Assembly (NCBI GenBank): GCA_900320955.1
Contig: ONUN01000023.1
Coordinates: 1-40,185 of the forward strand
Source: an uncultured Methanobrevibacter sp.
GTDB lineage: Archaea > Methanobacteriota > Methanobacteria > Methanobacteriales > Methanobacteriaceae
Direction: 5' to 3'
DNA: 40,185 nt
Positions 9,102-29,188 of this stretch are shown piece by piece. Position 1 is the stretch's first letter. Every line of letters begins with the position of its first letter. A program made the position numbers and the translations under genes. The notes beneath the pieces were generated by a model that was not told the origin of the DNA, ran no database searches, and saw only the letters and a list, made by a program, of their open reading frames with translations.

Positions 9102-9308
9102 ATGGATATGAAAAATACCACAATACTTCTCATGTTTTTATTATGCATAATAGGTCTGATTGCTGGAGTTTACTATAACGAATCAAGCGACAGCACTGCA
9201 ACATTTAACAAGTATGAAGAAGTAGTTCATGAAGATCCAAATGGAACCATTACCATCCAATTGGAAGTGAAGCAAAACGAAAACGCTTTAAATAAATTCT
9301 TTACCTGA
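9102..9308 (+). CDS. Small single-pass membrane protein
   Basis: 68 residues. Residues 4-24 form a membrane helix (NTTILLMFLLCIIGLIAGVYY), followed by a hydrophilic, acidic tail of about 44 residues. An ATG two codons further (9108) is an alternative start. It is divergent from the 105-residue anchored protein and convergent with the symporter gene. No family recognised. Coding status rests on the clear helix-plus-tail design, the promoter spacing and the lack of any competing frame. Confidence 0.6.
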   Translation: MDMKNTTILLMFLLCIIGLIAGVYYNESSDSTATFNKYEEVVHEDPNGTITIQLEVKQNENALNKFFT

Positions 9309-9335
9309 AAAATCTATTTTTAAAAAATTAGAAAA

Positions 9336-9364
9336 GAATATAGAGTTAATTATAATCTATACTC
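9336..9364. terminator. Imperfect hairpin between convergent genes
   Basis: GAATATAGA (9336-9344) pairs with TCTATACTC (9356-9364) in 8 of 9 positions with an 11-nt loop. It includes the symporter stop codon (9357-9359). T-rich sequence follows on the plus strand. Confidence 0.45.
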
Positions 9365-10844
9365 TTTCTTCAGTATCATCCCATTCAGGATTTTTAGCAG
9401 GCATAATAGTGAAAATGCCTGTCGCAATTAAAAGCAGCAAAGCAGTAACGATTGTAAAGTTAAGCTGATCTATAGTTCCTGCATTGATAACATCAATGAG
9501 TCCTCCAATCCAGATGATTGAAATGAAAATCGGAAGGATATACTTAACAATTACCAGCCACCATTTGCCCACTTTGATTGTTTTAGACCTTGAATTGAGA
9601 AAATCAATGAGCTTTTCAGCTTTGAATATCCATGCAAATATTATGCACTCTAAAATCACACCGAAAAGGAGTGCAATTTGATTGATGAATGTATCTACAA
9701 ATCCAAGCAGTTCTCCCCCGTAAGCGGTAGCGTAAATCATTGACATTGCCGCACCAACTATTACCAGTATTGTCATTGTCCTGGACCTTGTAAGGCCAAA
9801 CTTGTTTTGAATGGAAAATGACAACGGTTCGATTGTTGATAAAATGCTTGTAAGTCCTGCAAGATAAACTGTCAAAAAGAACAATGGTCCTAAAACGTAA
9901 GCCCACTGACCCAATACATTAAATACTGTAGGATAGACTACAAATACAAGACCGGTTCCCTGAGTTACAAGGTCCGCTACAGCTGTTCCGGACTGAAGTG
10001 ACATGTATCCTAAAATTGAGAAAACCCCTAAAGCGGCGAAGTTTTCAAAAAGTGAATTAGCAAGAGCAATTGAGATTGTATTTGTAATCAAATCAGCATC
10101 ATCGCTTGTATAGCTTGCATATGTAAATGCTATTGACATTCCCAGGCTTAATGAAAATACAATCTGTCCGAATGCAGCCATCCATATTTCAAAGTGTGTT
10201 AAAAGTGACCAGTCAGGGTTGAAGAGTTCCGCAAGACCTATTGAAGCACCAGGCAAAGTCAATGAAAACCCAACAATAATTACCATAATGATAAAGAGTG
10301 CAGGTACCAAAACTTTTGAAACCTTACCCAAACCTTCTTCCAAATCCCTGTGAGATATAAACCAAATGATTACCCAACCGATAAGCATTGCAACAGCAAT
10401 GATTGGAATGAAATGGGTCAAACCGGACATTGATTCTGATGATTGAAGAAGAGTGGTTGCAAAGAAAGTGTCCGGGTTTGCGCCCCAACCCTTGGTGAAA
10501 CTCAAAATCATGTAAATTCCATCCCAGCCAAGAATAGCTGAGTAATAAATCATAATCATAAAAACAGCAACCGGCAAAAGCCAGCCTAAATATTCCCAAT
10601 TGGAGTGAATCTTCCTAATCGCCTTTGGAAAGGAAGACTTAAAATTATATCCGACACCATACTCCAAAATCAAAAATGGAATTCCCATCAAAAGAATAGC
10701 CACAATATAAGGGATATAAAATGCTCCCCCACCATTAGAGTAAAGTACATACGGATATCTCCAAATGTTTCCAAGTCCAACGGCAGAACCAATCATTGCA
10801 AGGATGAATGAAAGGTTGCTGCCCCATTCATTTTTATCTGCCAT
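9357..10844 (-). CDS. Sodium:neurotransmitter symporter family (SNF) transporter
   Basis: 495 residues from the ATG at 10842-10844, preceded by GGAAATT. The frame can be extended 9 nt to a TTG, but the internal ATG fits the ribosome site better. The first helix carries SAVGLGNIWRYPY, the sodium- and substrate-binding signature of the LeuT/SNF fold. About 11-12 membrane helices follow, with an unwound helix-6 region (FGQIVFSLSLGMSIAFTYASY). Family members import amino acids or related amines with Na+. The substrate cannot be told from sequence alone. A monocistronic unit is likely, with about 175 bp of AT-rich spacer upstream. Confidence 0.93.
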   Translation of the reverse strand: MADKNEWGSNLSFILAMIGSAVGLGNIWRYPYVLYSNGGGAFYIPYIVAILLMGIPFLILEYGVGYNFKSSFPKAIRKIHSNWEYLGWLLPVAVFMIMIYYSAILGWDGIYMILSFTKGWGANPDTFFATTLLQSSESMSGLTHFIPIIAVAMLIGWVIIWFISHRDLEEGLGKVSKVLVPALFIIMVIIVGFSLTLPGASIGLAELFNPDWSLLTHFEIWMAAFGQIVFSLSLGMSIAFTYASYTSDDADLITNTISIALANSLFENFAALGVFSILGYMSLQSGTAVADLVTQGTGLVFVVYPTVFNVLGQWAYVLGPLFFLTVYLAGLTSILSTIEPLSFSIQNKFGLTRSRTMTILVIVGAAMSMIYATAYGGELLGFVDTFINQIALLFGVILECIIFAWIFKAEKLIDFLNSRSKTIKVGKWWLVIVKYILPIFISIIWIGGLIDVINAGTIDQLNFTIVTALLLLIATGIFTIMPAKNPEWDDTEERV

Positions 10845-18456: not shown

Positions 18457-18678
18457 TTGTTATCACCTAACACAAATAATGTTTATTAATCATAATTTTT
18501 AAAAGTTTTTAATCAAAAAACCGATATCTTAAGAATTTAATTTTTTCATATGGTTAAACAATTCTAATATCAAAGACATATGGAATGGTTCTTTTTGAGA
18601 TTGAGAAAATCATGATAAAAATTATATATTGGTTAATTTATAATTAATTAATAAATTATATTGATTAAAGAAGATACC

Positions 18679-20109
18679 ATGAATCAAATTCGTACAATAT
18701 TCAACAATATGGGCTGGTTAATGATTTCACAGATTGTCGCTTCTGTTTGTGGATTTATTTGGACCGTTTTAATGGCCAGGTATCTTGGAGTTGAAAAATA
18801 CGGTCTTTTTGGTTTTGCAACATCTTTAACTGGTATTTTAGCAATTACTGTGGATTTAGGCATTAGCACTCATATTGTAAGACATATTGCAACAGATTAT
18901 GATTCTGCTCCCACTTATTTGGGTAATGCCATTCCCTTGAAAAGTATTTTTGCAATTGGAACACTTATTTTAACATTAATTGTACTAATACTTATGAAAT
19001 CAGATGAACTTACCATAACTGTCACATTACTTTTTACACTTGAGATGATTATTAGATCATTTATTGGATTATTTAATGGTTCTTTCCAAGCATTTGAAAA
19101 GGGAAAATATCAGGGAATTGCCAATACTGCATTACATCTAATTTTATTGGCATTTATTTTGATTACAATATTCAGTGATTGGGGGATTATTGGAATTGCA
19201 CTTTCCTACATACTGGCCAATGCCATTATTATGGCTTATATGTATTATATCCTTGAAAAAAATGTCTCCAAACCAAAATTTGACTTGGATATAGAGTTTT
19301 GTAAAAAAATCACAAGATATTCCTTGCCTTTTGCAGTAACTAGTTTGTTATATATCATCTATTATTCAATTGACGTGGTCATGCTTCAAAATATGATTGG
19401 AAATTATGCTACTGGTATTTATAATGCCACATATAAATTAATTTCAGTTTTAACATTATTTTATTCTGTTTATACTGCAGTCATCTTTCCAGTTATGAGT
19501 AGATTTTTCAAAGATGATGAATCAATGCTTTTAATAAGTTTTGAAAAATCAATAAAATATTTAATGCTTGTAATAATCCCTATTGCTGTTGCAACAATGT
19601 TTTACTCATTAGACATAATACAACTTATTTATGGAAATAAATATGACCCCTCATCATCGGTTTTATCTATTCTAATTTGGACCGTCTGTTTATTATTCAT
19701 TAGTGGAGCCTGTAATACACTGCTGAATGCATCACACAAAGAAGTTGCCGTGACAAAAATTTACACCATAGCCGCAATATTTAATATTATTTTAAACTTA
19801 TTTATGATACCTTACTTATCATATAACGGTGCAGCAATAACAACTGTTTTGAGTGATATCCTAATTGTTATAATAGAGTGTTATGTGATTTATAAACTTG
19901 GCCATAGACCAAATAAAAAACTATATTTGGATTTAGGAAAAATAATTGTCGGGTCTGTAGTTTTAGGAATTACACTTTACTGTCTAAACCTGAACATGTG
20001 GGTTGCAATACCTGTTGGAATAATAATTTATTTCATAACCCTTGTTGTTATAAAATTATTTGATGACGATGACAAATATATTATTAAGGAAATTTTAGGT
20101 AAAAACTAA
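18679..20109 (+). CDS. Wzx-type flippase (oligosaccharide flippase family)
   Basis: 476 residues from the ATG at 18679. A TTG 18 nt earlier keeps the frame open, but the ATG gives the family-typical start MNQIRTIFNNMGWLMIS. About 12-14 membrane helices. MARYLGVEKYGLFGFA is the usual first-loop motif of polysaccharide-biosynthesis flippases. It would move lipid-linked oligosaccharides across the membrane. A decayed second copy lies at 25245-26642. The licD-methyltransferase-licC genes follow on the same strand, so the exported glycan may be the one they decorate. Confidence 0.92.
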   Translation: MNQIRTIFNNMGWLMISQIVASVCGFIWTVLMARYLGVEKYGLFGFATSLTGILAITVDLGISTHIVRHIATDYDSAPTYLGNAIPLKSIFAIGTLILTLIVLILMKSDELTITVTLLFTLEMIIRSFIGLFNGSFQAFEKGKYQGIANTALHLILLAFILITIFSDWGIIGIALSYILANAIIMAYMYYILEKNVSKPKFDLDIEFCKKITRYSLPFAVTSLLYIIYYSIDVVMLQNMIGNYATGIYNATYKLISVLTLFYSVYTAVIFPVMSRFFKDDESMLLISFEKSIKYLMLVIIPIAVATMFYSLDIIQLIYGNKYDPSSSVLSILIWTVCLLFISGACNTLLNASHKEVAVTKIYTIAAIFNIILNLFMIPYLSYNGAAITTVLSDILIVIIECYVIYKLGHRPNKKLYLDLGKIIVGSVVLGITLYCLNLNMWVAIPVGIIIYFITLVVIKLFDDDDKYIIKEILGKN

Positions 20110-20163: not shown

Positions 20164-20994
20164 ATGCAAGAATATGATAAAAATACTTTAAAACATCTAC
20201 AAGAAGTGCAATTAATGATTTTAAAAGATTTTATAGACATCTGTGAAAAACACGATTTAGAATATTGTGCCTATGGAGGAACTGTAATCGGTGCTATACG
20301 CCATGAAGGATTTATTCCCTGGGATGATGATATTGATGTGCTGATGTTAAGAGAAGATTACGAAAAATTTTTAAAAATTATGGATGAAATGCAATCCGAA
20401 AAATATGAATTATTGAACATAGATAAATACGAGGATTACCATTACATGTTTTCCAAATTGTCCTTAAAAGGAACAAAATTTAAAAACCATTGGTGTTTGA
20501 AAAAATCGTTTAATGTTGGAATTAACATTGACATATTTATATTCGATTATATTGCTTCAGATAACTTCATGTTTAAGATTTTTAAAAAAAGAGTTAAGAT
20601 TTTAAAAAAAATAGGATATATACTGGAAATTATCCAAAATGACTATTACAACTCAACATATAAAAAAATAATTATTTACTGCATAAAATTTATTTTCTCT
20701 TTATTAAACATCAATAATAAGACTTATAAAAAATTCTACAAAAATTTACTAAGCAAATTACCTAATAAATCAAATTCATTAGTTTACGACTTAGCTGCAA
20801 TATCTTATGATGAACCTCTTAGTATAGATACAATAATGCCTCCAAAAAAAGCCAAATTTGAATCAATTGAAATCAACATTCTTAACGACTATGATACTTA
20901 TCTAAAGATTAATTTTGGTAATTATATGGAGATCCCGCCAAAAGACAAACAGATAAATCATTCCCCGCTCGAACTTGATTTTGGGAAATATTAA
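20164..20994 (+). CDS. licD: LicD family phosphotransferase
   Basis: 276 residues. Core motif GGTVIGAIRHEGFIPWDDDI at 38-57, followed by DV, is the nucleotidyltransferase-fold signature of LicD/fukutin-like proteins (GGT, then RHEG and DDDID metal ligands). In bacteria LicD moves phosphocholine from CDP-choline to cell-surface glycans; other members move different phosphodiester-linked groups. The Lys-rich middle (about 130-195) is poorly conserved. A GAGAGGA ribosome site precedes the ATG. The LicC-like gene two places downstream supports use of a CDP-activated group. The identity of that group is not visible. Confidence 0.88.
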   Translation: MQEYDKNTLKHLQEVQLMILKDFIDICEKHDLEYCAYGGTVIGAIRHEGFIPWDDDIDVLMLREDYEKFLKIMDEMQSEKYELLNIDKYEDYHYMFSKLSLKGTKFKNHWCLKKSFNVGINIDIFIFDYIASDNFMFKIFKKRVKILKKIGYILEIIQNDYYNSTYKKIIIYCIKFIFSLLNINNKTYKKFYKNLLSKLPNKSNSLVYDLAAISYDEPLSIDTIMPPKKAKFESIEINILNDYDTYLKINFGNYMEIPPKDKQINHSPLELDFGKY

Positions 20995-21084
20995 TATAAT
21001 GGAACTTGAAGTCAAGTAGTTCGAAAAAGTTAATAATACCTTAAATAAATATGATTATTATAATAAAATATATTGGTGTTTAAT

Positions 21085-21795
21085 TTGACAAGGCTGTATG
21101 GTGAGAAAGAAGATATAAACAAAGAGAATGTAAAGGAATTCTTCGATAAAAGAGCAGATAAAGAAGTTGAGAGTTTAATGACAATCACTTCCTTTCAGGA
21201 TAAGGAAAATTTAGACCAAAGACAAATTGAAGAATCAGAAATATTATTGGAAAATATTGACCTGACCGGCAAAAAGATTATTGAGATTGGTTGTGGACTT
21301 GGAAGATGGGCAGAAGTATTTCACGACAAATGTGAATGTTATCTTGGCCTGGACTATGCTGAAAATCTTATAAAACTAGCCAATGAATACTACAATTATG
21401 AGAACTGCGAATTTCAAGTAATGTCCGCACTAGACGTCAACACTGACAAACTGCTTATACAACCTCCTTTTGACATCATCTTCATAGCGGGTGTTTTAAT
21501 TTATCTTAACGATGAAGACATTTTAAAGATGATTAAAGAAATTAATAAAATAGCTTCAAAAGATAAAATAATATATATTCGTGAAACAATTTCAGTAATG
21601 GACAGGAGATTGACACTAAAAGACTTTTATTCACAAGACTTGGATGCCGAATATAATGCCATTTACAGAACAAAAGACGAATTATTAGAATTTTTTAAAG
21701 GATTTGAAGATATAACTGATATCAAAAGCGATAAAATTCATGAGACTTTAAATAAACATGATGAAACCGGTTATAGATACTTTATTTTAAAATAG
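21085..21795 (+). CDS. Class I SAM-dependent methyltransferase
   Basis: 236 residues if it starts at the TTG at 21085-21087, which has GGTG seven bases upstream (21075-21078). The TTG at 21073 is an alternative but has no site. IIEIGCGLGRWAEVF (SAM-binding motif I) and LGLDYAENLIKLANEYY (motif II) are clear. IIFIAGVLIYLNDEDI corresponds to the post-motif. The substrate is not predictable from these motifs. Its place between licD and licC, 12 bp before the latter, suggests it methylates the activated group or its precursor, for example an aminoalcohol or its phosphate, or else the glycan itself (inference). Confidence 0.85.
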   Translation: MTRLYGEKEDINKENVKEFFDKRADKEVESLMTITSFQDKENLDQRQIEESEILLENIDLTGKKIIEIGCGLGRWAEVFHDKCECYLGLDYAENLIKLANEYYNYENCEFQVMSALDVNTDKLLIQPPFDIIFIAGVLIYLNDEDILKMIKEINKIASKDKIIYIRETISVMDRRLTLKDFYSQDLDAEYNAIYRTKDELLEFFKGFEDITDIKSDKIHETLNKHDETGYRYFILK

Positions 21796-21806
21796 GAGGA
21801 ATTATA

Positions 21807-22454
21807 ATGAAAATTAAACATGCAGTTATCTGTGCAGCAGGACTGGGATCCAGATTAGGCAAAAATATGCCCAAGACATTAGTCAATATCACTGAAGATA
21901 AACGAATTATAGACCACCAATTGGAGTTGGTTGAAGATTTTGAACTTGTTTCCATCGTTGTTGGTTATAAATGTAAAGATGTGGTCGATTATGTTAAGGA
22001 CAAAAGAGAAGACATAAGAATCATACATAACCCAGGTTTTGAAAATAATTCAACCGCATTTTCAATAGACTTGGCAACCAAAGATATAAATGAACCTTAC
22101 GTTTCAATAGATGGGGACTTGTTAATTAATAAAGAAGAATTTGATAATTTCGTTAACTCCTTTGATGGCGAAACTCTTCTTGGAATAACTCCCTCTAAAA
22201 CCGAAGACGGAGTTTATGTCCACTTAAATGAAAATCAGGAAGTAATCTCCTTTCAAAGACAACCGAAAACTGATTTTGAATGGGCAAATATCGCCTGCAT
22301 AAATAAACCAGTCATAATTGACAAGGATGAAGACTACGTTTATCCCCAATTCATAAAACATTTACCTTTAAAATCATTCATAATCGAACATCTCTACGAA
22401 GTGGACACACCTGGAGATTATGAAGTTGCATTAGCTAATTTAGATAAATTATAA
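21807..22454 (+). CDS. LicC-like NTP transferase (CTP:phosphocholine cytidylyltransferase type)
   Basis: 215 residues. N-terminal CAAGLGSRLGKNMPKTLVNI (about 9-28) is the nucleotide-binding loop with the catalytic Lys. IDGDLLI (101-107) holds the metal-binding Asp. Lack of the C-terminal beta-helix and the short length fit LicC or similar small nucleotidyltransferases rather than GlmU or RmlA. It has a strong AGGAGGAATTATA ribosome site. Together with licD it suggests formation of a CDP- (or other NDP-) activated alcohol and its transfer to a glycan. No LicA-like kinase or LicB-like permease is in the window. Confidence 0.85.
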   Translation: MKIKHAVICAAGLGSRLGKNMPKTLVNITEDKRIIDHQLELVEDFELVSIVVGYKCKDVVDYVKDKREDIRIIHNPGFENNSTAFSIDLATKDINEPYVSIDGDLLINKEEFDNFVNSFDGETLLGITPSKTEDGVYVHLNENQEVISFQRQPKTDFEWANIACINKPVIIDKDEDYVYPQFIKHLPLKSFIIEHLYEVDTPGDYEVALANLDKL

Positions 22455-22717
22455 CAAGATTAATTGAAACTTATATTAATAATTGAAGATTGAAGGTTAT
22501 GATTTTAATTTCATATATTAAAAAATGAAGATATGTAACAAATAATTTTAATTGTGGTTTTAAACTTATAAAAACAAATACTATTCCTTAAATCATGTTT
22601 TTCTACAAAGTTTTAAATATCACATAATTATTACATTATATAAATTAAATTTTTTGATTAAAAATAAATAATTCAAATTATATGTTTAAAATAAAATTAA
22701 TTAAAAACTAAGTGATA

Positions 22718-23428
22718 ATGTTGATTGATGAATCAAAGAATAGAGAAAAATTAAAATTTACTGAAATTAAAAAATTATCTAAAAATATTGAGTTTAAAAT
22801 TAAAGAATTCTAGATTGGTGAACTTCAATTTTATCGATATAGAATGGATAAAATATTAAAAGAATATGCTAATTTTCCACAGGATAATAAAATTCATACT
22901 ATTCTTGAATATGGAATTATTTATACTGACCTCTGTTACGGAGCATATAGAGCTCATGAATATGTACCTACTATAGTAACATCAAAATAGAGTAAGTGTT
23001 CTAGAAAAATAAAAATATTATAATGGAGCATATGCAATTGGCCCATATATCCATTATGCAAAATCTTTATTATCCAAAGAAATCATTAAAAAGTGAAAAA
23101 GAAAGATTTGGAAAAACATTCTTAGTTTTTCCAAGTCATTCTATTGAAAGTTTAGTTACAGATTTTAAACTTGAGCCTTTTTAGATGAAATTGACACAAT
23201 ATCCGAAGATTTTTACTCTGTGAGAATATGTATATACTATCAAGATATTACATTAAACAGATTCAAAGAATATCAAAAAAGAAGTATGAAGTTGTAACTG
23301 CAGGACATTATTATGACTATAATTTTTTACCTAGATTACGGAGTATTATCGAAACTTCAGACATCACTATGTCAAATAACCTTGGAAGCCATTTAGGGCA
23401 GTGTATTTATTTAAATAAACATTTTTAG
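22718..23428 (+). pseudogene. Decayed polysaccharide-locus protein
   Basis: Starting at the ATG at 22718 (AGTGAT site), the frame meets a TAG at about 22811 and another at about 22988, and then needs at least two frame changes. Recognisable pieces in order are FYRYRMDKILKEYANFPQDN, then GAYAIGPYIHYAKSLLSKE, then GKTFLVFPSHSIESLVTDF, then CIYYQDITLNRFKEYQKRKY and TMSNNLGSHLGQCIYLN. They line up as one protein of a type I associate with capsule and surface-polysaccharide loci; I cannot name the enzyme. The end is truncated after CIYLNKHF. Clearly non-functional as a single product. Confidence 0.75.
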
Positions 23429-23591
23429 TCATATAATCAATGATATTAAACAGTTGGTGAAAAAAATGGTGAAAATGTTGGAGATATGATTAATAATGAA
23501 AAAATATTCAAAAAAAACAAAGAAAATAATGAAAATATAATAATATCTGAGTCATTCAATCACAAAAAACTGAATACCCTATACAAAACAG

Positions 23592-23987
23592 ATGATAAAA
23601 ACCTATGAAAAATACAAATCATCAACCATTGCAATCACAGAAGTCTCAAATGTAATAAAAAACAGAGCAATCGAAGGAAATAAAATTGAAAACGCCTACA
23701 ATATTACAAACATCACTGAAAGGCTTCAAAACGGAACCCCTCCCATCCAATCTTATGGCCATTGGTCACTGAATCCACATACCAGCCATATTTGATAAAA
23801 TTTGTGAAACTGAAGATGGCATCAACCGTGAAATCCATCTCACCAATGCACTCTTAAAACTGGATTCAATGTATGGCGTTGTCTTTGAAGGCGAAACCTA
23901 TTATCTGAAAACCGACTTGAATGGCTCAAGGCATCAATCGAATTCAGCATTGACGATAAGGATTTGAGGGTTATAATCAATATATGA
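23592..23987 (+). pseudogene. galU: C-terminal remnant of UTP-glucose-1-phosphate uridylyltransferase
   Basis: Three frames carry successive parts of the C-terminal half of GalU. First TYEKYKSSTIAITEVSN and ENAYNITNITERLQNGTPP; then, after a shift and a stop, IPAIFDKICETEDGINREIH, LTNALLKLD and YGVVFEGETYYL; then, after another shift, RLEWLKASIEFSIDDKDL. These match the GalU pattern of a substrate-loop EVS, the PAIFDKI...GEIQLTDA segment and the terminal WLKA.IEF. The N-terminal nucleotide-binding half is missing. The preceding 23430-23590 stretch has open bits but nothing I recognise. The gene is dead here; the functional copy must be elsewhere. Confidence 0.8.
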
Positions 23988-24380
23988 AAAGTTACATTTA
24001 AAAGATTCCAAAAGAGTTAATCTTCTTAAATCTCTAATTTTAAGGAATTTAAAATTATAATTCATGCATTTTATCTATTCCCTACTTGATTCTTTAAAAA
24101 TAATAACATTAAGACTCATTCAGAATTTTCAATCATTTAACATTATAGTGCATTTAAAATGAATTTATGTATTAATTGTAATGAAAATCAAACTCAATTA
24201 GATTAACAAAAAATTTGAAAGAACTCCAAAGTTACCAAGATAATATTTATAAAATACGATAGATATAATTTACATAAGAGCAATACAAAAAAATAATAAT
24301 AGAATAGGTGAATATCTTGTTTAAAAAAGTTTCATATTTTAATAGATTATTTTAAATATATTGAGAATCCTTTTGAAGCA

Positions 24381-25220
24381 TTGAAATTTAAATTCGGTTT
24401 AACTAATACTTGTGATTTAAAAATTAAAAACAGCAATTATCCTCTTACATTATATCATGTTGATTCCATTAATAAATTAATGAATTATATACCTATACTA
24501 TTAACTGAAAAAGTAGATGAGTTTTTAAAATATATTGACAACATTGATAAAGATAAAGAGTATGTAGTAATCAATGACATTAATTTCATAAATGTTCACA
24601 ATTCCAATTTTATTAAAAATAAGAAGAATGATTATAATGTGCATTTAGAAGAATTTTTTACAGATGATGAATGGAACATGATTGATTTTGAAGGAAGGCA
24701 CATTATTGATATTGGAGGGAATGTTGGAGATACTCCATTATATTTTGCCAGTAAAGGAGCAGAAGTAATTAGTTTTGAACCTGTTAAGCATTTACATGAA
24801 CTCGCTGAAAAAAATGTGGAAATTAATACACGTTATTCAGATAAAATTACTTTAGTCAATAAAGGTGTTGGAGGAAAAAGAGGATTTTTAACTTTCGAAT
24901 CAACATCTGTTAAAGGATATGCTAATGAAGAGTCCTATGAAATGGAAATTATCTCAATGGAAGATTTATTAAATGAGTATGAATTTACACCAGACATTTT
25001 AAAAATGGATTGTGAAGGATGTGAATTTGAAATAATCCTTAATGATGACCTAACCATGTTTAATGACATTATCTTTGAACATCACTCCAAAATTACTGGA
25101 AAAGATTACAAACCACTTATAACAAAATTAAAAAATGAAGGATTTAAAGTAGATACATACCCAATTAGTGCAAGCATCTTCCCCTTCGAAGATATTGGAA
25201 TAATACACGCATATAAATGA
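24381..25220 (+). CDS. FkbM family methyltransferase, probably frameshifted at its 5' end
   Basis: The longest intact frame gives 279 residues from a TTG at 24381. IIDIGGNVGDTPLYFASKGA and VISFEPVKHLHELAEKNVEI form the SAM site, and ILKMDCEGCEFEII is the conserved FkbM motif. Members O-methylate sugars or other polar groups. The TTG at 24381 has no ribosome site. A better start is the TTG at 24317, 5 nt after GGTGA. It reads MFKKVSYFNRLF and then stops at 24353-24355. Removing one T from the TTTT at 24350-24353 would join it to KYIENPFEALKFKFG. So either the gene is freshly damaged or a late start is used. Methylation domain itself is intact. Confidence 0.8.
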   Translation: MKFKFGLTNTCDLKIKNSNYPLTLYHVDSINKLMNYIPILLTEKVDEFLKYIDNIDKDKEYVVINDINFINVHNSNFIKNKKNDYNVHLEEFFTDDEWNMIDFEGRHIIDIGGNVGDTPLYFASKGAEVISFEPVKHLHELAEKNVEINTRYSDKITLVNKGVGGKRGFLTFESTSVKGYANEESYEMEIISMEDLLNEYEFTPDILKMDCEGCEFEIILNDDLTMFNDIIFEHHSKITGKDYKPLITKLKNEGFKVDTYPISASIFPFEDIGIIHAYK

Positions 25221-25244: not shown

Positions 25245-26642
25245 TTGAGTAAAAACTATATTTAAAAATATGAGTTAGCTACTCATCTCATAAATAATTA
25301 CTAGTGTTTGTGGATGTATTTGGGCAATTCTCATGGCGAGATATCTTGGAGTTAGTGATTATGGTATTTTAGGATTTGCAATATCTTTTACTGCGATTTT
25401 AGGAATTCTTGACGATATGGGAATCCATACTCATATTGTTCGTCATATTTTCAACTGATAAGGATTCCGCTCCTAAATACGTAGGTAATGCATTACCTTT
25501 GAAAGTAATCTTTGCATCATTGAAAACCATTTTATCAATAATTATCATAATTATACTTGGGTGTAATGAACTCACAATAATAATTACACTGCTTTTTACT
25601 CTTGAAATGATTTTTAAATCATTTATTAATTGTATATTTGGATCTTTTCAAGCATTTGAAATGGGAAAATATCATGGTATTGGAAATACAATAATGAACA
25701 TAACTACATTATTATTCATTTTAGTTATACTGATTTAGGAATATTTGGAATAACTATTTCTTATATTCTAGCAAATTTAATCGCTTTTATTTATTTATAC
25801 TATGCTTTAAACAAACATATTTTTAAACCAAAATTGAATTAGATATTGAATTTGTAAAAGAATTACATTATTATTCCTCCCTTTTGCAGCAGCAGGAATA
25901 TTATACACAATATATTATTCAATTGATGTTATAATGCTTGAAAATATAGTTGGTAGCTATCCAACAGGGATTTAAAATGCAACATACAAATTGATTTCTG
26001 TTTTAACATTATTTTATTCCGCATACATAACAGTTATTTTCCCAGTAATGAGTAAATTTTTCAAAAATAATGCGAATCTGCTTTTGATTAGTTTTGAAAA
26101 ATCAATTAAATATTTAATGATTATAATGATTCCAATAGCTGTTGCAACAATGTTTTATTCATTATACATCATCCAATTAATTTATGGTCATGGATATGAT
26201 GCGCTTCATCCGTTTATCCATTTTGATCTAGACAGTTTGTTTATTATTCATTAGTGGAGCTTGCAATACTTTATTAAACACATCATATAAAGAATTAACC
26301 ATGTAAAATTTATGCAATAGCTGCTGCATTTAATGTAGTAAACTTTTTTATGATTCCACATTATCATACAACGGTGCCACAACACTACTGTTTTAAGCGA
26401 TATTTTAATTGTAATCATACAATGCTATGTAATTTACAAACTTGGCCACAGGCCTAACAGAAAATTATACTTAGATATCGTTAAATCATAATATGATTAA
26501 TCATTCTAGGTATTGCACTCTACTTCCTAAACCTAAATATGTGGGTTGCACTGGAATAATAATATACTTTGCATCTGTTTATTTATTAAAAATCTTTGAT
26601 GATGACAAGTACAATATTAAAGAAATTCTAGGTAAAAATTAG
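25245..26642 (+). pseudogene. Decayed second copy of the Wzx-type flippase
   Basis: It follows the intact flippase at 18679 along almost its whole length. MARYLGVSDYGILGFAI, GSFQAFEMGKYHGIGNT, SVLTLFYSAYITVIFPVMSK, SFEKSIKYLMIIMIPIAVAT and the end KEILGKN all have close partners there. Lesions include Trp to TAG and Gln to TAA codons near the start, frameshifts around 25440 and 25740, stops near 25840-25975, and further frame changes after 26250. Overall length (about 1,400 bp) is nearly that of the intact copy, so decay was by point changes and small indels rather than deletion. Confidence 0.9.
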
Positions 26643-27111
26643 CTCAAAAGAGATTTGAGGAGAATATTTTTCCGAAAAAATGTGGAAATTGGGACAATCA
26701 CTTCTTTTAATCCTTTGTTATTCTAATATATTTAGGAGGCATTTTTGTTACAGTCGATTTGATGTATCAAAATCTATTTGTTGTTTTAATGAGAATTAGA
26801 CAGTATCTGTTCATAGTAATATCACGATAATAAAAATAAATTCGATTCAATCAAAAACAACATCATCGGAAAGACATCAATTCAATAATCCTTTGTAGCT
26901 AGAGGAGGCATTTTTCATATATCACCGTAATCATGTTCATGTCAAAAATCAATCCCCATTCCACATCATTATTCCAAGTGATGTTATTGCTACAATTTTC
27001 CCATCCTGACTTCAACCACATATTTTCTCAAAAATTCATTATGTCAAGACATTCAGTGGAGTAAAAATTATTTCAAAAAATGTTAAATAGAAGTTACGAG
27101 TTATTACTCTT
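26643..27111. other. Intergenic stretch with a short direct repeat and possible coding remnants
   Basis: No intact gene. AATCCTTTGT followed by AGGAGGCATTTTT occurs at 26709-26746 and again, closer together, at 26887-26915. Short translated pieces such as KNVEIGTITSFNP (before the first copy) look like hexapeptide-repeat fragments, so this may be the wreck of an acyltransferase-like gene, but the evidence is weak. The 3' part is the upstream region of the beta-helix protein gene. Confidence 0.3.
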
Positions 27112-28641
27112 ATGAACAGAAAACTTTTGATTGCAGCAATTGCAGTCGTGATAATTATTGTAGGAGCATTTGCACTTTCAAACAATACATCATCACAAAT
27201 AGGAAATTCTGTCAATATCGATGCAAATACACTAAAAGATATGGGAAATATTGTAGTAAACGATAGTAAAGATTCAAAGGAAAAGGGATTGGCATCTGCT
27301 AGTTCAAGTGATTTGAATTCTATTTTAGTAACAAATAACGGCAAATTAACTATAAAAGATTCATTGGTTAACAAAACAGGAGATACCGCAACTTCAGGAG
27401 ATGATGCTGACTTTTATGGTGTCAACTCCGCTATTTTAGTCAACACCAACGGAACATTGGACATTTCAAATGTTGAAATAAATACAAATTCAAAAGGTTC
27501 AAACGGTATTTTTGTAACCAATTCCGAAGCTTCAGCCAGCACGTCCCCACAGGGAGGGTCTTCTGAAGGCTCACAACCCCCTGAAGCAGCCGGTGGAAAT
27601 TCATCCCAGGGCGGCGATGGAGGACAACCTCCAGAAGCAACCGGAAATGGTGGCGACAACTCACAGGGTGGAGCCGGAGGACAACCTCCTGAAATGCCAT
27701 CAGGTGAAGGCAGTCAGGCTCCTGGAAACGGTGGCGGAGATCCGTCAGGTGCAAGTGACGTGAGCGGAAATACCGAAGCGACCATCAAAAACGTTAAAAT
27801 CACAACACACTCAGACAAGTCAAGAGGTCTTGATGCAACCTACAAAGGTAAAATCAATGCAGAAAACGTTGTCATCAATACCGACGGTCAAAGCTGTGCT
27901 GCTCTTGCAACCGACAGGGGTGAGGGTGAAGTGCACGTCAAAAACTCTGAAATCAATACAGGCGTCAGCAAAACCAGCGGCAGAGGATCACCTTTAATTT
28001 ATTCAACCGGAAACATTACCGTTGACAATACCAAAGGAACATCCTACGTATCACAAATAGCATGTATTGAAGGTAAAAATTCTATTGGAGTGACAAACTC
28101 CGATTTGACCGGTTACAGTGAAGGTAACAGAAAAGACGGGGACAACTATGTTGATTTGGGCGGAATATTCATCTACCAATCAATGAGCGGGGACGCTGAT
28201 GTTGGAACATCACTTTTCACAGCAAAAGACTCAAAGCTCACAATCCCTCAGGACTCATCAGTCTACAAGGAAGCACCGATGTTTCATGTAACCAACACAG
28301 CATGCGTAATCGATTTGAAAAATACCGAATTCAGCTTTGGAAGCGGGACATTTCTAGAAGTTTCAAGCCAAAACCAAAAAACAGACAGTGAAAAAATAGA
28401 CGGGAATGTTATTGTCGACAATATCAGTTCCCTCAACTGGACCATGAAAAATACCGAATTCAAAGGTGCCATCAATTCAACCGGAAACACTACAGTCAAT
28501 GTTGCTGACGGGTCAACCTGGACATTGACCGGTGACAGTTCACTATCTTCTCTAGCAGTATCCGGTAAAATTGACTACGGCAGCTATAAGCTAACCGTCA
28601 ACGGCAAGACCTACGACAGTTCAAACCCATTTAAAGGATAG
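27112..28641 (+). CDS. Secreted or anchored beta-helix-like surface protein with Gly/Pro-rich insert
   Basis: 509 residues. Residues 4-22 (KLLIAAIAVVIIIVGAFAL) form a signal or membrane anchor. The rest is built of short beta-strand repeats of the type SAILVNTNGTLDISNVEINT and GEVHVKNSEINTG, as in right-handed parallel beta-helices. Residues 141-218 interrupt them with a Gly/Ser/Pro/Gln-rich stretch holding three QPPE units (155, 172, 191). Similar proteins occur in Firmicutes as putative carbohydrate-binding or adhesin-like proteins; no catalytic motif is visible. There is no good ribosome site before the ATG. The base composition is clearly richer in G and C than the preceding 5 kb. A strong terminator follows directly. 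Confidence 0.75.
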   Translation: MNRKLLIAAIAVVIIIVGAFALSNNTSSQIGNSVNIDANTLKDMGNIVVNDSKDSKEKGLASASSSDLNSILVTNNGKLTIKDSLVNKTGDTATSGDDADFYGVNSAILVNTNGTLDISNVEINTNSKGSNGIFVTNSEASASTSPQGGSSEGSQPPEAAGGNSSQGGDGGQPPEATGNGGDNSQGGAGGQPPEMPSGEGSQAPGNGGGDPSGASDVSGNTEATIKNVKITTHSDKSRGLDATYKGKINAENVVINTDGQSCAALATDRGEGEVHVKNSEINTGVSKTSGRGSPLIYSTGNITVDNTKGTSYVSQIACIEGKNSIGVTNSDLTGYSEGNRKDGDNYVDLGGIFIYQSMSGDADVGTSLFTAKDSKLTIPQDSSVYKEAPMFHVTNTACVIDLKNTEFSFGSGTFLEVSSQNQKTDSEKIDGNVIVDNISSLNWTMKNTEFKGAINSTGNTTVNVADGSTWTLTGDSSLSSLAVSGKIDYGSYKLTVNGKTYDSSNPFKG

Positions 28642-28674
28642 GAAAGATTGATTTCTTTCCTAATTTTTATTTTT
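28639..28674. terminator. Strong hairpin terminator with T tract
   Basis: TAGGAAAGA (28639-28647) pairs perfectly with TCTTTCCTA (28654-28662), 9 bp with a 6-nt loop, followed by AATTTTTATTTTT. The first three bases are the stop codon of the beta-helix protein gene. It separates that gene from the convergent Isf-like gene. Confidence 0.75.
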
Positions 28675-29188
28675 AGCAGTTCAAACCTGCATCATATACT
28701 TTTTTCAAAGTGTCATTTTGTGATTTTGCATTTCCAAAGACTTCAAAGACTTCTTTTATTGTCGGATTTTTGGCAAATCCTATGAAACTCTTAAGTCCTG
28801 TCAGTGCATCGCCACAACTGCTTCCTGCAGCCAGAATTACATAAAAATCCTTGTTTTCAAGATGCCTGAAAATCGGATAGCACCTGTCGAAAAACATTTT
28901 AAGTGTTCCGCACATCTCATAGTAATATACTGGAGTCGCATAGACTATCACATCAGCATCCATCATGTCATCAAGGATTTCTGCTATGCCGTCATCCTGA
29001 AAGCATTTCATTTCGGGAGTCTTGCATTTGTAGCATGCCTTGCATGATGAAAACTCGATGTCTTCAAGGAAATATTTGACCGCTTCATGGCCTGCATCCT
29101 GAGCGCCCCTTAAAAATTCATCGCATAATGTATCTGAATTTTGGCCCTTTCTGGGAGATGAACTTATGATTACTACCTTTTTACTCAT
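28673..29188 (-). CDS. Isf-like flavoprotein (NADPH-dependent FMN reductase fold)
   Basis: 171 residues from the ATG at 29186-29188; a TTG two codons earlier is less likely. The N-terminal VVIISSSPRKGQNSDTLCDE is the FMN-phosphate loop. Cys49, Cys52, Cys55 and Cys62 form a CX2CX2CX6C motif like the compact 4Fe-4S motif of archaeal iron-sulfur flavoprotein. ATPVYYYEMCGTLKMFFDR is typical of the family. It probably moves electrons, perhaps in oxygen or oxidative-stress defence. The start overlaps the stop of the upstream flavodoxin gene by 8 nt, so the two are coupled. Whether the cluster is really assembled is not visible. Confidence 0.85.
   Translation of the reverse strand: MSKKVVIISSSPRKGQNSDTLCDEFLRGAQDAGHEAVKYFLEDIEFSSCKACYKCKTPEMKCFQDDGIAEILDDMMDADVIVYATPVYYYEMCGTLKMFFDRCYPIFRHLENKDFYVILAAGSSCGDALTGLKSFIGFAKNPTIKEVFEVFGNAKSQNDTLKKVYDAGLNC

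Follow-up and report, generated by a model that had tools for sequence, protein, structure and literature searches.

The known systems that most resemble the genes discussed here modify bacterial flagellin. NMR showed that the tag on the flagellin of C. difficile 630 is GlcNAc joined by a phosphodiester to N-methyl-L-threonine (PMC4441256). Tags without the methyl group result when cd0243 is disrupted, and only GlcNAc remains when cd0241, cd0242 or cd0244 is disrupted (PMC10714395). The tag of Pseudomonas aeruginosa PAO1 contains N,N-dimethylthreonine according to MS, with a marker ion of its dehydrated form at m/z 130.086, and mutants in pa1088, pa1089 or pa1090 retain only the deoxyhexose (PMC11833859). 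It has been proposed, as a hypothesis, that CD0242 and PA1090 are CTP:phosphothreonine cytidylyltransferases, that CD0241 and PA1089 act as a phosphoserine:threonine phosphotransferase and that CD0244 and PA1091 are the transferases (PMC4441256, PMC10714395, PMC11833859). A 2014 paper found the CD0241-0243 cluster, besides C. difficile, only in PAO1 (PMC4441256).

The genes analysed here lie in a 40,185-nucleotide stretch of DNA, referred to as the window, from an uncultured Methanobrevibacter sp. (contig ONUN01000023.1). An earlier note had read positions 20164 to 22454 as a trio of LicD, methyltransferase (MT) and LicC-like nucleotidyltransferase (NT) genes, and had suggested that their product might be a methylated phospho-aminoalcohol of the phosphocholine type, placed on a surface glycan without choline uptake. 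Nothing relevant on phosphocholine or LicD in methanogens came up in the literature searched.

Organization of the locus

Three intact, consecutive ORFs on the plus strand occupy this interval, and their matches to the three expected families are well beyond chance (Table 1). The LicD carries the canonical GG...RHEGFIPWDDDIDV motif. The longest MT ORF (21073-21795, 240 aa) starts at a TTG; an alternative TTG start at 21085 is favoured because the orthologues suggest it. The NT begins 11 bp past the MT stop. The flippase directly upstream has an orthologue that also precedes the trio in the Methanobrevibacter genome G040, and the opposite strand of the window encodes glycosyltransferases, a UDP-GlcNAc 2-epimerase and a PMT_2-type (mannosyltransferase-like) membrane protein. 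The setting of the trio is a Methanobrevibacter surface-glycan cluster. No flagellin gene was noticed in the window, and among its annotated proteins there is neither a HAD of the PSP/ThrH-like CD0241/PA1089 type nor a TagF-like transferase of the CD0244/PA1091 type (PF04464), whose place is taken by LicD.

The stretch that separates the NT from a gene of the FkbM methyltransferase type looks like decayed sequence. Beyond that gene lie a second copy of the flippase, decayed and in pieces, and an Acyl_transf_3 remnant, the intact counterpart of which directly follows the NT in genomes G040 and G015; these are traces of duplication or cassette turnover. A region of raised G+C follows over a gene with a 509-aa secreted-looking product.

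Table 1. Features of the window and of related loci (G, C and L numbers denote genomes, contigs and loci)
Feature	Position	Strand	Remarks
Polysaccharide flippase (Wzx/MOP type)	window 18676..20109	+	PF01943 4.5e-39; directly upstream of trio; context, not core
LicD family phosphotransferase, 276 aa	window 20164..20994	+	PF04991 5.5e-41
MT, class I SAM methyltransferase, predicted N-methyltransferase	window 21085..21795 (favoured)	+	SAM methyltransferase 1.4e-11; PA1088/CD0243-like
NT, nucleotidyltransferase, 215 aa	window 21807..22454	+	NTP_transf_3 2.5e-07; PA1090/CD0242-like
Stretch with no ORF >=70 aa	window 22455-24380		1.9 kb
FkbM-type methyltransferase gene	window 24381-25220
Decayed second flippase copy	window 25249-26639		about 50-64% to intact flippase
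Acyl_transf_3 remnant	window 26714-27063		after decayed flippase
Region of raised G+C	window 27000-29000		about 0.41 vs about 0.27
Gene for 509-aa secreted-looking product	window 27112-28641		without Pfam match
NT-CobD-like fusions	L068:10295-12118, L077:10581-12404, L103:9537-11357, L104:9432-11285, L113:9007-10821		600-617 aa
LicC-LicA-like fusions	L106:9410-11008, L107:9709-11286, L108, L109, L110, L111		NT-choline/ethanolamine kinase
PhnW-like aminotransferase and G3P-cytidylyltransferase/oxidoreductase fusion, with LicD and MT	L066:5802-8200		with its equivalents, in about 13 genus genomes
Phosphonate cluster, source genome	L112:8063-13145 (G000:C196)
Decayed second MT copy, G040	L065 about 9260-9750		directly upstream of intact MT
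MT with internal TGA	G007:C1:1533932-1534648
Rhizobium oryzicola locus	L127:3126-6738		beside fliP and flgH

Ancestry of the nucleotidyltransferase and the methyltransferase

Two separate searches of 72,556 plasmids, one using an MT relative and one using the window NT as query, returned a single record each. It was the same record, a P. aeruginosa megaplasmid, with both matches in one operon of its b-type flagellin island; a phage collection gave no NT or MT matches. The megaplasmid operon lies beside a b-type fliC and contains an NT, an MT, a HAD and a CDP-glycerol-phosphotransferase-type gene, which were assigned by gene order and annotation as PA1090, PA1088, PA1089 and PA1091 (the transferase), respectively. 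The window NT is 34% identical to this PA1090 across 208 aa and the window MT 32% identical to this PA1088 over its full length (246 columns, E 8e-44), identities of about 33% that do not fix substrate specificity. The MT and PA1088 have RLTL..F(Y/F)S..L..(E/D)Y.A(I/V)YRT in common.

In a tree of 24 NT domains, in which some outgroup branches are long and the LicC side consists of LicC-LicA-type fusions from the genus, the window NT forms one clade with PA1090 and the NTs of Rhizobium and rumen bacteria (support 100/100), and the LicA-fused, CobD-fused (decarboxylase) and PntC-like NTs all fall outside it. The NT shares ancestry with PA1090, and the MT with PA1088. The description of the NT as LicC-like is borne out to the extent that its closest solved relative is LicC (1jyk, 7.9e-10; a partial match of 111 aa). 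With the NT-family profile the nearest solved structures are LicC and PntC (1.7e-15 and 6e-15), above inositol- and sugar-phosphate enzymes; the structure model of the NT is too poor to analyse its pocket (pLDDT 72, weakest at residues 130-171). We predict from its sequence that the NT, which is of the PA1090/CD0242 type, is a CTP:phospho-amino-acid cytidylyltransferase. Since the tree puts it with PA1090, a phosphocholine route via LicC is demoted from first choice.

The four best PDB matches of the MT profile are phosphoethanolamine N-methyltransferases (PMTs; 1.3e-18 to 1.9e-10). Eukaryotic PMTs methylate phosphoethanolamine. The invariant Y198-R199 of the MT aligns with the THYR of nematode PMT1, in a part where the alignment is weak. 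Unlike the eukaryotic PMTs, the MT is a single short domain; the homology is remote, and the sequence similarity is mostly confined to the SAM-binding core. A Foldseek search with the AF2 model of the MT (pLDDT 88) gives DhpI, a phosphonate O-methyltransferase, as the best match (TM about 0.65), and ToxA, NTMT1 and PMTs fit about as well; the fold alone therefore cannot settle N- versus O-methylation. DhpI is absent from the sequence-profile matches of the MT.

Distribution in Methanobrevibacter

Full-length MT orthologues (46-91%) are present in 22 of the 67 genomes of the genus, and LicD lies at most three genes from the MT in 19 of these 22 loci. Close relatives of the window NT are found in three genomes, the source genome, G040 and G015, always directly after the MT. 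According to the earlier note a failure of the three genes to co-occur elsewhere would refute its proposal; the trio recurs in G040, in G015 and in rumen bacteria.

Elsewhere in the genus the MT has other neighbours. In two genomes these are an NT fused to a CobD-like PLP decarboxylase, in most others a PhnW-like aminotransferase with a glycerol-3-phosphate-cytidylyltransferase/oxidoreductase fusion, and in one a PntC-like NT-AEP-transaminase with PEP mutase; the MT is an orphan in G038 and G026 and stands at a contig end in G057. The activation context switches at least six times in the MT tree, and in nearly all related loci the neighbours resemble makers of activated amines. An amine on an activated phosphate is common to the neighbouring modules, and N-methylation is therefore favoured over sugar O-methylation. 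The MT alone cannot name the amino acid, because its homologues also adjoin modules with other amines.

The NT-CobD-like fusions, found in Methanobrevibacter and Lachnospiraceae and often next to LicD, might convert phosphoserine or phosphothreonine into CDP-ethanolamine or CDP-aminopropanol within a single protein. The cytidylyltransferase in loci of the L066 type is a glycerol-3-phosphate cytidylyltransferase fused to a Gfo/Idh/MocA oxidoreductase, and this module is possibly a CDP-serinol-type route. LicC-LicA-like fusions occur in several Methanobrevibacter genomes, some of them beside an IspD-like cytidylyltransferase and LicD. The decayed MT copy in G040 and the MT with an internal TGA in G007 are instances of decoration-gene turnover.

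The source genome encodes its PepM (PEP mutase) on contig C196, apart from the trio, in a phosphonate cluster that comprises an NT, a cytidylyltransferase-PEP mutase fusion, a TPP decarboxylase, an Fe-alcohol dehydrogenase and an NTP transferase. Because it has the Fe-alcohol dehydrogenase and no aminotransferase, hydroxyethylphosphonate is suggested as its product. In G015, which has the trio, the PepM match is below the cut-off, and G040 gives no PepM match; as G040 nevertheless has the trio, phosphonates are not needed for it. For the HAD, 56 of the 67 genomes give only a generic match to PA1089 (about 30%); the source genome, the assembly of which is 84% complete, gave none. All genomes of the genus give CobD (TIGR01140) matches below the cut-off and none above it, so that no source of an amino-alcohol phosphate is identified.

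Distribution outside the genus

Among 84,980 species genomes scanned, those with relatives of the MT (30-41%) belong to Lachnospiraceae, Synergistaceae, a spirochaete and Rhizobium. In six of these loci outside the genus the MT adjoins a window-type NT (about 30-35% identical); a SerB/ThrH-like HAD is present in five of the six, and LicD in four of them. The MT-NT pair, usually with the HAD, occurs in Lachnospiraceae, Synergistaceae, Rhizobium and Pseudomonas. The Rhizobium oryzicola locus has a CDP-glycerol-phosphotransferase-like gene, the HAD, the NT and the MT in this order and is likely a b-type-like flagellin modification island.

Proposed function and alternatives

We consider it probable that the trio represents an archaeal form of the pathway behind the Type A / b-type flagellin glycans of C. 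difficile and P. aeruginosa, a form that uses LicD. The gene identities, the ancestry of the NT and the MT and their repeated co-localisation argue for this, while the lack of a HAD in the window and the presence of LicD instead of a TagF-like transferase count against it. The NT would form a CDP-amino acid from CTP and O-phosphoserine or O-phosphothreonine, and the MT would N-methylate the amine, before or after CDP activation. LicD, which is predicted to move a phospho-amine from a CDP donor to a glycan, would then transfer the phospho-N-methyl-amino acid to a surface glycan, and the neighbouring flippase would export that glycan. The enzyme activities, the amino acid and the glycan that accepts it are all inferred, and the target is probably an exported glycan rather than flagellin. 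Phosphoserine is an intermediate of serine synthesis. Its direct use is the simplest guess, because the archaeal loci have no HAD, the proposed phosphoserine:threonine phosphotransferase.

Like the trio, PA1088-PA1091 of PAO1 combine this NT and this MT in one operon, and their product, a phosphodiester-linked N-methylated amino acid on a sugar, is of the type proposed for the trio. PAO1 differs in having the HAD PA1089, the fused GT/TagF-like PA1091 and flagellin as the target, where the archaeal locus has LicD and neither a HAD nor a flagellin. CD0240-CD0244 of C. difficile 630 share the MT and NT types through the published orthology of CD0243 with PA1088 and CD0242 with PA1090 (PMC4441256), and differ in the HAD CD0241, the TagF-like CD0244 and the flagellin target. 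Because two of the defining genes are found (NT, MT) and two are not (HAD, TagF-like transferase), we take the trio to work like the Type A / b-type pathway but do not class it as a member of that pathway itself.

A route closer to the earlier note would have the MT methylate phosphoethanolamine, the LicC-like NT make CDP-(methyl)ethanolamine or CDP-choline, and LicD transfer the product. It would account for the PMT matches of the MT profile and for LicC as the nearest solved structure of the NT, and the nearest NCBIfam equivalog of LicD is a cholinephosphotransferase, at a score well below the cut-off. Lic-1 (LicA/B/C/D) indeed resembles the trio in its LicD transferase, its LicC-related NT and its CDP-activated small alcohol. 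However, an N-methyltransferase takes the place of choline uptake in the trio, the NT groups with PA1090, apart from the LicC-LicA-type fusions found in its own genus, and LicC itself aligns only partly. There is no match to LicA (PF01633) in the source genome (84% complete), in agreement with the earlier note; a source of phosphoethanolamine is not obvious, and no NT-decarboxylase fusion was seen in the three genomes that carry the window-type NT. Moreover, the PMT similarity mostly concerns the SAM-binding core, and PMTs do not stand out in the fold search. We regard this route as unlikely. What stands of the earlier proposal is the kind of product, a CDP-activated, N-methylated phospho-amine placed by LicD on a surface glycan without choline uptake, which the PMT matches and the amine-activating neighbours would suit; a phosphocholine-type substrate is probably wrong given the clade of the NT with PA1090 and the homology of the MT to PA1088.

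Activation and N-methylation of another small phospho-amine (aminopropanol phosphate, serinol phosphate or 2-aminoethylphosphonate) is suggested by the relatives, in which the MT family adjoins NT-CobD fusions, a PhnW-like aminotransferase with the glycerol-3-phosphate-cytidylyltransferase/oxidoreductase, or PntC with PepM. None of these modules adjoins the trio, though. PntC tailoring (CMP-AEP) shares with the NT a related cytidylyltransferase fold and an amine-bearing substrate, but no PEP mutase or AEP transaminase accompanies the trio, and the PepM results for G040 and G015, as well as the want of an aminotransferase in the phosphonate cluster of the source genome, also speak against it, so that we think this quite unlikely. 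The earlier note had named O-methylation of the glycan as the simpler alternative. The MT would then act on a sugar or phosph(on)ate oxygen, unrelated to the substrate of the NT, and the three genes would be mere neighbours in a glycan cluster. DhpI as the best structural match is in keeping with this, but it is missing from the profile matches, MT-NT adjacency is kept from archaea to Lachnospiraceae, Synergistaceae, Rhizobium and Pseudomonas, and disruption of the C. difficile homologue removes an N-methyl group (PMC10714395); this conserved pairing and the mutant phenotype make O-methylation very unlikely. Judged by neighbours alone, a MeOPN (Cj1416-like) route was rejected, as no glutamine kinase or amidotransferase partner lies beside the trio.

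Implications

Phospho-N-methylthreonine was previously known from two bacterial flagellins. The NT-MT core is present both in a methanogen and in rumen bacteria, where LicD is likely to be the transferase. If the proposed pathway variant is correct, this extends the chemistry to archaeal surface glycans and separates it from flagella, and a so far unassigned archaeal gene set gains a concrete list of substrates that can be tested. More tentatively, we speculate that host-associated methanogens possess a swappable kit, in which one MT family serves at least four activation modules and LicD transfers the products as variable, zwitterionic, N-methylated phospho-amine caps to their surface glycans. 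The modules would supply a CDP-amino acid, the product of an NT-decarboxylase fusion (possibly CDP-ethanolamine or CDP-aminopropanol), that of a TagD-oxidoreductase with an aminotransferase (possibly of the CDP-serinol type) and CMP-aminoethylphosphonate, and the trio would be the first archaeal case of a CDP-N-methyl-amino acid, perhaps made from phosphoserine. The prediction is that gut methanogens bear zwitterionic caps resembling host mimics, which would bear on immune recognition and virus attachment.
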